Origin: an uncultured Candidatus Saccharimonas sp.
GTDB taxonomy: Bacteria; Patescibacteriota; Saccharimonadia; Saccharimonadales; AWTP1-31
Length of the DNA: 48,939 bases
Direction: 5' to 3'
Assembly (NCBI GenBank): GCA_943353855.1
Contig: CALRBD010000002.1
Span: forward strand, 1-48,939
Shown here piece after piece: positions 25,837-30,994 of this stretch (the stretch's first letter is position 1; every line of letters begins with the position of its first letter). The translations under genes and the position numbers were made by a program. The notes under the pieces were generated by a model that saw nothing but the letters and a program-made list of their open reading frames with translations, was not told where the DNA came from and made no database searches.

Positions 25837-25971
25837 AAGCTCATGGCTTCAAGCGTTAGATAACTTCTTCTACCGTCCTTGCCCTCATATAAAAGTATAT
25901 GTAGTCATCTTAGAGTTTTGGTTATTTCATCAAAGGGGAGGGGTGAACTTTTTTTGTTTTTAGATTACAGT

Positions 25972-26619
25972 ATGATTATGAACCTACATCGAACCGACGA
26001 TAATCCTCAGTGGGAGCGAACTCCTGAAAGTATGCAAAATATCTGGCAAAGAGTAGCCAAAAAAACTCACGGTGTTTTTACCCCAGCCAATGCAATTAGT
26101 CTTGCGGGACTAGCCCTAACGATCTCAGGCCTCCAAGATTTTAAAAGGGGAGACAAGAAAAAAGCTATAACTAAAGTAATTTCTGGTCGTCTTTGTGATA
26201 TTGCAGATGGCTATGTTGCTGAACGGACTAAAACAAAAAGTCCTTTAGGTGAAGCAGTCGATGCAACGGTAGATAAGATTAGTATGGCGCACGGCCTATA
26301 TGTTATGTCCAAGACTCATACCCTGCCCCCTCTTGCCTCGGCTTCATTCTTATCTCAGAATATTATTAATACTGCTGCTACTGCTATTTCTAAGAAGCGT
26401 GGCGTAGAGCTGCACCCTTCCGCTGAGGGCAAGATAACGACGCTACTACAATGGGCAGCAATCGGGGGCTATGCTATAGCTTCTACAGAACAAACTAGAG
26501 ATGATCCTACGATTGTCGAGATAGGTAGTAATGTCCTAGCTTCCACTGCGGCTGCTATCGGTGCAGTAGTTAACATCCAATACATAGCTCAGGCCACTCG
26601 TATGCCTGAACAAGACTAA
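25972..26619 (+). CDS. CDP-alcohol phosphatidyltransferase-family protein
   Basis: CDP-OH-P motif: SGRLCDIADGYVAERTKTKSPLGEAVDATVDK (DxxDGxxAR...GxxxDxxxD, with a one-residue variation at AR). ATG at 25972 preferred over the 25879 start in the track. Confidence 0.8.
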   Translation: MIMNLHRTDDNPQWERTPESMQNIWQRVAKKTHGVFTPANAISLAGLALTISGLQDFKRGDKKKAITKVISGRLCDIADGYVAERTKTKSPLGEAVDATVDKISMAHGLYVMSKTHTLPPLASASFLSQNIINTAATAISKKRGVELHPSAEGKITTLLQWAAIGGYAIASTEQTRDDPTIVEIGSNVLASTAAAIGAVVNIQYIAQATRMPEQD

Positions 26620-26640: not shown

Positions 26641-28158
26641 TTGCTTATGCTTGCATATGGCGCAGTAGAGTTCTATATTGAAAAAATGCAGGAATCATTG
26701 CCAAATACCTATCCATTCCCACGAGCGATTGGAACCGAAGAAGAAACTGGATTGCTTGTAGGGCTCGACGGATTATACGATGAACCTTACGACTTGTGCG
26801 ATAGCCTTAGTGTGTATTTACCAGAATCATTAAAAGGTCAGGGCCAAGACGAATACTTATTAAACGGATCTCGTATATATCCTGGAGGCACTAACGGTGT
26901 ACCAAAAGATAATACAAATCTCGAGCGTGCTACTCCAGAAACTATATCGCCGTGGCAACTAGCAGAATATAGTCGCGGTAGTGAGGTACTGATTGAAGAA
27001 GTATTAAAGAACTATGCATTTAAACAAGCAGACTATTATAAAAATGAAGTAGATATTAGGATGCATCGGCGAGTAGTAGATGCATTTGGAAATCGAAAAG
27101 GTTGCCATGATAACTATTCTATCGAAGATGAGTTTATTGACAGAGAACAGATGCCCCAGTCGCTGGTCTATTTACTATCTGCTCGATCTTTAGTAATGGG
27201 TGCAGGCCTTGTAACTGAAAACGGTTACGAGTATGCTCAAAAAATTGGTGGTCTTAGTTCAGTCAATAGCTATGGGTACTCAGGTTCTATGTACCGCACT
27301 GATAAAGAGCACGGTAGTCGATTGGAGATTCGCTGTAGTGACCAGAATATATCTGATTGGGCAACTGTCATGCGAGTCGGAAGTGTTGCTCTATTATTAG
27401 CCCTTCACCAAACACCTCTTGGCAAAAAACTAGAACAGTCATTTAAATATACTAAAAGTGAGGAAGATGTTTTAACAGAAGCGAATGAACTTAATTCGGT
27501 AACCCTACTAGGTTCAAATGATATTGTTCTTTCAAAACCACAATTACAGGGTCTAGAATTCATGGAGCAACTAGCTACCCTTACTATGGATAAGCTGCAA
27601 TTATATGCTGACTTACCTATTAGCTACCATTCAATTGCAAAGGAACTGCTGACTTTTTGTGAAGATCTTAGAAAGGTAGCTAAGCATGAAGAGCATTTTA
27701 GTATTCTTGCAGACCGTGCAGATTGGGCAGCAAAACTAAGTGTAATTCAACACGGAATTGAGAGAGACAGAAGCTTCGGAATTAAACGAGAGCTAGGAGA
27801 TTATGCATCGCAGGCTGCAGATATGAATTATGACATGGTTAGAATAACTCGATCCCCCGATGATGATAAAGAACAAGTTAGGCGTGGAAGTGGGTACCGT
27901 TTACGCGAAAAAGGTGCTTTTAAATATACGGTTAATGAATCAGCAATCCAGACCGCCTATAACAAAGCCCCTACTCAAACAAGAGCACACGCTCGAGCCT
28001 ACCTTTTAAAAAATTACTTCGCAAAACATTGTTACTGGCATAAGGTATTTGTTGGCAATAGCTCACATGCAGAAATTGAACTTAATAATGTAAATTTACC
28101 TGATCTTGAACAGGAAGATTTAGAAGCCTTATCATTAATTGAAAAACTAGGTAGCTAA
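26641..28158 (+). CDS. PafA/Dop-like (Pup ligase/deamidase superfamily) carboxylate-amine ligase
   Basis: AIGTEEETGLLV; LLNGSRIYPGG...NLERATPET; KGCHDNYSIEDEF; SRLEIRCSDQNISDWATVMRVGSVALLLAL; DRADWAAKLSVIQHGIERD; ADMNYDMV; APTQTRAHARAYLL. Confidence 0.75.
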   Translation: MLMLAYGAVEFYIEKMQESLPNTYPFPRAIGTEEETGLLVGLDGLYDEPYDLCDSLSVYLPESLKGQGQDEYLLNGSRIYPGGTNGVPKDNTNLERATPETISPWQLAEYSRGSEVLIEEVLKNYAFKQADYYKNEVDIRMHRRVVDAFGNRKGCHDNYSIEDEFIDREQMPQSLVYLLSARSLVMGAGLVTENGYEYAQKIGGLSSVNSYGYSGSMYRTDKEHGSRLEIRCSDQNISDWATVMRVGSVALLLALHQTPLGKKLEQSFKYTKSEEDVLTEANELNSVTLLGSNDIVLSKPQLQGLEFMEQLATLTMDKLQLYADLPISYHSIAKELLTFCEDLRKVAKHEEHFSILADRADWAAKLSVIQHGIERDRSFGIKRELGDYASQAADMNYDMVRITRSPDDDKEQVRRGSGYRLREKGAFKYTVNESAIQTAYNKAPTQTRAHARAYLLKNYFAKHCYWHKVFVGNSSHAEIELNNVNLPDLEQEDLEALSLIEKLGS

Positions 28159-28189: not shown

Positions 28190-28363
28190 ATGCTAATTAC
28201 TATGGATAGCACACCTAAGACACCTTGCCAGGATAAGTTAGCCTTTGACACTAAGAAGCAAGCAGATATTGCAGGTCTAGTCGCTGAGCTTCAGCATAAT
28301 GCTAAACTTAAAAGCTATAAGTGTACATATTGCAGTCTCTGGCATTTAGCTAGTAGTAACTAG
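28190..28363 (+). CDS. Small putative zinc-ribbon-like protein (57 aa)
   Basis: MLITMDSTPKTPCQDKLAFDTKKQADIAGLVAELQHNAKLKSYKCTYCSLWHLASSN*; CxxC motif YKCTYCSLWHL. Below the ORF-track size cutoff. Alternative ATG at 28202. Confidence 0.6.
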   Translation: MLITMDSTPKTPCQDKLAFDTKKQADIAGLVAELQHNAKLKSYKCTYCSLWHLASSN

Positions 28364-30655: not shown

Positions 30656-30994
30656 ATGAATAATCCATATCAATCACCAGAAAAAGCTAGACAGTCCCCT
30701 GAAATAAAGGGTGGCGCTGCCTATGCAGCAAAAGATCGAGTAGAAACAATTGGCCTAGCTGTCGGATTAGTACTAGGTGCAACAGAACATTTAGCGAAGT
30801 ATTCATTTAAAGAAATACCAATGGATGCAGCTTATCCAGCCACCAAAGTAGAAGATGATACAGATGGTTTAGAACAATCAAATACTATGGCCACTGAGGC
30901 GACCTTACCCGTAGATGCATCTAAGGATCTACAAATGGATGCAGCATATGCAGCACTTGCAGCTGCCTATAATAACCCAGAAGAGACAAATTAG
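30656..30994 (+). CDS. Hypothetical protein (112 aa)
   Basis: ORF between tatD and 31020; repeated MDAAY motif. Confidence 0.5.
   Translation: MNNPYQSPEKARQSPEIKGGAAYAAKDRVETIGLAVGLVLGATEHLAKYSFKEIPMDAAYPATKVEDDTDGLEQSNTMATEATLPVDASKDLQMDAAYAALAAAYNNPEETN

Follow-up and report, generated by a model that had tools for sequence, protein, structure and literature searches.

A Pup ligase-like protein clade without detectable Pup in the Saccharimonadales

The gene and its neighbourhood

An open reading frame at positions 26641-28158 (forward strand) of the window, i.e. the complete stretch of 48,939 nucleotides analysed here from an uncultured Candidatus Saccharimonas sp. (source genome of 590 kb, 72% complete), had been predicted to encode a PafA/Dop-like protein. 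The open reading frame is real and all the motifs quoted in the original prediction are present (Table 1). Translation probably does not begin at the annotated TTG, the ATG at 26647 or that at 26686 being likelier; use of ATG 26647 yields a protein of 503 amino acids, whose N-terminus coincides with that of the orthologue from the same-genus genome G405.

The protein matches a single Pfam family, PF03136 (Pup_ligase), with 109.6 bits (E 2.4e-31), above the gathering cut-off of 25 bits. Membership of the PafA/Dop superfamily is further borne out by the profile of clade C, the clade to which the protein belongs (see below): hhalign aligned it to the PafA/Dop profile with a probability of 100% (E 8e-41), and the clade profile matched the PafA/Dop chains in the PDB at E about 4e-24, PafA and Dop being the only PDB relatives with a significant score. 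The protein is 20-23% identical to PafA and Dop, and its scores for the NCBIfam equivalogs lie far below the cut-offs, with 69.1 bits versus 551.3 for PafA (TIGR03686) and 67.4 bits versus 492.3 for Dop (TIGR03688). Given the negative outcome of several of the tests that define PafA and Dop, clade C belongs to the superfamily but lies outside PafA/Dop proper.

The closest orthologue, that of G405, is 94% identical (dN 0.031, dS 0.140, ratio 0.22); loci L002 and L071 lie on one contig of length 77530, which is also that of the G405 orthologue, and they were counted as a single orthologue. In the comparison with the orthologue of G442 (61% identity) the third codon positions have changed most, dS being saturated. 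The dN/dS ratio of about 0.22 and the third-position bias indicate that the window gene is under purifying selection. No hydrophobic stretch, signal peptide or membrane segment was found in the protein, and AlphaFold2, given the protein and one orthologue, returned an unusable model (pLDDT 31, pTM 0.21). The clade-C copy of G427 (L191, G427:C96:3341-4774) contains an in-frame TAG, which may reflect decay, a sequencing error or read-through.

Co-transcription with the upstream CDP-alcohol phosphatidyltransferase gene is possible, and this neighbour is seen within the genus only. The small downstream ORF is not Pup-like and ends in SSN. Further downstream, after tatD, an ORF encoding a low-complexity protein of 112 amino acids (30656-30994, forward strand) has no Pfam match and is not Pup-like. 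Comparison of the neighbourhoods of 14 clade-C loci revealed no partner gene common across genera, and no shared secretion gene was found beside the clade-C genes.

Table 1. Features at the locus (positions in the window; residues of the window protein)
Feature	Position	Strand	Remarks
CDP-alcohol phosphatidyltransferase ORF, upstream	25879..26619	+	about 28 bases before ATG 26647
PF03136-family gene	26647..28158	+	503 aa from ATG 26647; alternative starts TTG 26641, ATG 26686
GTEEE, residues 29-33	26731..26745	+	GxExE Mg/ATP motif, core strand 1, kept (definition: PMC2588565)
Y78-E93 loop (PGGTNGVPKDNTNL)	26881..26922	+	catalytic Asp replaced by Gly; 14 residues vs 6-7 in PafA/Dop
H154-D-N156	27106..27114	+	[HQ]x[NH] strand-4 motif, kept
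E227-I-R-C-S-D232	27325..27342	+	Ex[RK]x2D strand-6 motif, not the [QH]x4D of PafA
T445-R-A-x-x-R450	27979..27996	+	TRAxxR motif, kept
Small downstream ORF, 57 aa, C..C-containing	28190..28363	+	conserved in three same-genus genomes

Phylogenetic position and active site

PF03136 proteins were found in 54 of the 295 sampled Saccharimonadales and, in a broader sample of the phylum, only once outside this order, on one short contig. The Saccharimonadales proteins are extremely diverse. In a mixture-model tree of 60 rows, 13 of which make up clade C, the window gene falls in subclade C2 of this Saccharimonadales-specific clade, outside PafA+Dop. Support is 100/100 for clade C and for C1, 94/82 for C2, 100/99 for PafA+Dop, 96/94 for B and 100/100 for D, whereas the near-canonical clade A is weakly supported and the scattered remaining sequences are referred to as 'E'; the clade assignment of the long branches L073, L077, L037 and L063 is unsure. 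Clade C is sister to clade B (94/95). The AU test rejected the grouping of C with PafA (p 0.0007) and with Dop (p 0.003), and a joint grouping with PafA+Dop is excluded by the unconstrained tree.

Among viral contigs the clade profile retrieved no relative, and plasmid and phage collections contained only PafA/Dop of the actinobacterial type. In one entry named 'Bacteriophage sp.' (MT835496.1, L149), an operon encodes an AAA ATPase, Dop, Pup and PafA; the entry is probably a misnamed actinobacterial contig. Clade D (L060, L061, L064, L070, L074 and L076) is a second fully supported clade lacking Pup; it keeps the catalytic Asp and has ExTx2D on strand 6, and some of its members (G424, G454) belong to the family of the window organism.

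The GhExE signature takes the form GTEEE in the window protein, with Thr at the hydrophobic position. Throughout clade C (residue numbering of PafA, PDB 4b0t) E16xE18, N57-G58 (one exception), Y62, E70/T73/E75, H130, K351 and R418/R422 are kept, as are the NGxRxY, HxN and TRAxxR motifs. The position of PafA D64 (Dop D94) is occupied by Gly in 9/9 C2 sequences, and MAFFT, hhalign and HMMER agree in placing this Gly opposite the PafA/Dop Asp. The Asp is kept in C1, A, D and E (where covered) and in most of B. The loop between Y62 and E70 measures 12-22 residues in C2 versus 5-9 in all other sequences covering the region, C1 included. In PafA/Dop this Asp has been proposed to act as the base for the activation of lysine or water, and it is crucial for catalysis by Dop (PMC3511204, PMC8599861). 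Acidic residues of the enlarged C2 loop could replace it; none of them occupies a fixed position.

On strand 6, PafA has [QH]x4D and other GS-fold ligases have Ex[RK]x2D (PMC2588565). The form ExRx2D is found in most of clade B and in nearly all of clade C, and both clades lack the RPIINTRDEPH block (201-211). Loss of this block was considered as a sign of lost Pup binding, an idea that was dropped because the Pup-paired clade B also lacks it. Since clade B shares both features and yet often adjoins Pup, neither of them alone means that Pup is no longer used, and only the loss of the Asp and the missing Pup argue specifically against Pup chemistry in C2. The original prediction had set against a Pup enzyme the possibility of a distinct GS-fold family lacking Pup-binding residues. 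The supported clade outside PafA+Dop, the loss of the Asp in C2 and the GS/GCS-type strand-6 motif largely speak for such a family; as regards Pup-binding residues, an Arg near the position of PafA R201 may have been retained.

The Dop loop, 40-65 residues located before strand 2 (PMC8599861), is missing from the window protein, in which GTEEETG is followed by NGSRIY after only about 38 residues, a PafA-like spacing. Although the clade profile scores slightly higher on Dop chains than on PafA chains in HMMER, it is thus very improbable that the enzyme is a depupylase or deamidase of the Dop type, considering also the rejected grouping with Dop, the absence of the Dop-essential Asp and the lack of Pup in the genome.

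One could further imagine a pseudoenzyme, derived from a Pup ligase, that has lost activity and fulfils a regulatory or binding role. This we regard as improbable, because the remaining motifs of the catalytic site vary little or not at all within clade C and selection is purifying, whereas in a plain pseudoenzyme one would expect the metal ligands to be lost as well; in its favour is the loss of the catalytic Asp throughout C2. Some copies may decay, given the in-frame TAG in G427.

Pup and proteasome genes in the Saccharimonadales

The lack of Pup and proteasome genes, which the original prediction had noted for the window, holds more widely. No 20S core and no Mpa/ARC were found in the window's own genome (72% complete) or in the same-genus genomes G405 (98%) and G442 (94%); weak TIGR03689 matches were rejected as Mpa/ARC, as they represent FtsH-sized AAA proteins. 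The Pup family PF05639 was matched in 0/14 clade-C genomes, a profile (A1) of 14 Pups, 13 of them from Saccharimonadales, retrieved nothing credible from 36 Pup-negative genomes, clade C included, and the GG[EQ]-stop pattern yielded no Pup-like ORF in the window's own genome G000, G405 and G442; a very diverged tag would escape these searches. The absence of Pup from all 14 clade-C genomes contrasts with its presence in 14/25 genomes of clades A+B (Fisher p 0.00035, or p 0.02 when only genomes at least 90% complete are considered), counts that ignore relatedness, the absence from clade C being one evolutionary event and not 14.

The suggestion that the enzyme acts on its own Pup encoded elsewhere in the genome thus found no support in three kinds of search and two near-complete same-genus genomes. 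A true Pup ligase that modifies with a highly diverged tag of its own, encoded elsewhere, would agree with the intact ATP/Mg site of clade C and with the adjacent, strongly diverged Pups of sister clade B (NGQ ends, extra helix segments). We nevertheless consider this rather unlikely in view of the lost catalytic Asp in C2 and the outcome of the Pup searches.

Cultivated Saccharibacteria live on Actinobacteria, and another proposed target is the Pup of an actinobacterial host, or host proteins that carry it. Nothing was found in support of this proposal, and the absence of a signal peptide, a membrane segment and a shared adjacent secretion gene, as well as the loss of the Asp, make it a most improbable one.

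True Pup genes were identified in 17 of the 295 Saccharimonadales genomes, 16 of which also contain a PF03136 gene (Fisher p 3e-12). The encoded proteins (ORFs L092 and L095-L107) have a length of 65-107 amino acids and the pattern LLDEIDxxLExN...FVxxFVQKGG[QE]. Pup directly adjoins the PF03136 gene in G362, G421, G556, G563, G591, G551, G388 and G471 and, as judged by eye, in G585. Some of these genomes are near-complete, e.g. G312 with its 3 contigs, and contamination is unlikely there. The remark on Actinobacteria as the group from which pupylation is best known needs amending, because these Saccharimonadales encode Pup beside such ligases. Among the open-access papers searched, none was found that links Pup to Saccharibacteria or Patescibacteria.

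No 20S subunit (PF00227) was detected in the Pup-bearing Saccharimonadales genomes tested, and ARC/Mpa (PF17758) occurs in only 1 of the 295 genomes, G601. The ARC of this genome (double OB, AAA) is split over two contigs bearing genes of Saccharimonadales type, at L166:2-1144 (-) and L167:1-681 (+), and Pup and a clade-B ligase are present as well. A contaminant is unlikely, as the order of RNase H, GlyRS and RecO on the contig matches that in other Saccharimonadales. Weak PF00227 matches in G480 (L169:954-1817 (-)) and G491 (L170:3018-3656 (-)) correspond to proteasome-like Ntn hydrolases of ambiguous type, with no Pup or ARC found there.

Several of the Pup genes deserve separate mention. 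In G624 (L102:1498-1722 (-), L177:5903-6127 (-)) the Pup gene overlaps a GH25 endolysin-like gene in a prophage- or phage-looking stretch, and it is possibly phage-borne. The genome that carries the Pup gene L208 (G489:C4:203269-203448) is 97% complete and has no PF03136 match. Unusually long Pups adjoin clade-B ligases at L105:1498-1755, L106:1498-1770 and L107:1441-1764; in these proteins the usual C-terminal segment is preceded by an additional one, acidic and helix-like, and some end in NGQ and not GGQ.

Proposed role and comparison with known enzymes

Judged from sequence comparison, the window gene probably encodes a stand-alone GS-fold carboxylate-amine ligase, which would have split from a Pup-using lineage and would no longer act on Pup. 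Such an enzyme is expected to be a cytosolic, ATP-dependent member of the PafA/Dop superfamily, from a clade sister to the Pup-associated clade B. Formation of an acyl phosphate from a carboxylate with ATP/Mg would most likely be retained, as the conserved parts for this step are present, and the loop that supplies the lysine- or water-activating base in PafA/Dop has been rebuilt without the Asp. The donor would be something other than Pup, e.g. a small molecule or a peptide ending in Glu/Gln, and the acceptor would differ as well. A different substrate was one of several options offered in the original prediction, and it is the one that we favour among them. A counterpoint to such repurposing is that C1 keeps the Asp and yet also lacks Pup.

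According to the reply of the authors who defined the PafA family (PMC2588565), PafA is accompanied by a neighbouring Pup gene in every organism that possesses it. Clade C breaks this rule, as its conserved enzymes are found without Pup and those of C2 also without the catalytic Asp. The combination of Pup and ligase in tiny Saccharimonadales genomes with no 20S and almost never ARC implies a role of pupylation other than feeding a proteasome, and the Saccharimonadales offer a natural series in which to follow the origin of Pup ligases and their changes of substrate. More tentatively, and with somewhat less than even confidence, we suggest that the order harbours an undescribed radiation of Pup-ligase-like enzymes, several of them paired with Pup without a proteasome, in which clade C would perform Pup-free ligation of another tag or a metabolite with rebuilt catalysis.

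Corynebacterium glutamicum is known to have Pup and ARC but no 20S core (PMC12288473); the Pup-bearing Saccharimonadales differ in that nearly always even ARC is lacking. The window protein has GxExE, NGxRxY, ExxTxE, HxN, TRAxxR and the GS-fold superfamily in common with both PafA (PDB 4b0t, 4bjr) and Dop (PDB 4b0r, 7oxy). Like PafA, to which it is 22% identical over 411 positions, it has no Dop loop, but it differs in lacking D64 and RPIINTRDEPH, in having Ex[RK]x2D for Hx4D, in the absence of Pup and in its separate clade. From Dop (23% identity over 353 positions) it is distinguished by the missing loop and catalytic Asp, the sub-cut-off score and the rejected grouping. With the GCS2/glutamine synthetase carboxylate-amine ligases it shares Ex[RK]x2D and GxExE (motifs according to PMC2588565), yet it has no Pfam match to those families. 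Finally, the sister clade B of the Saccharimonadales (e.g. L058/G563 and L050/G388) has the same strand-6 motif and likewise no RPIINTRDEPH, but, unlike the C2 subclade of the window protein, it has mostly kept the Asp and often has a Pup gene adjacent.
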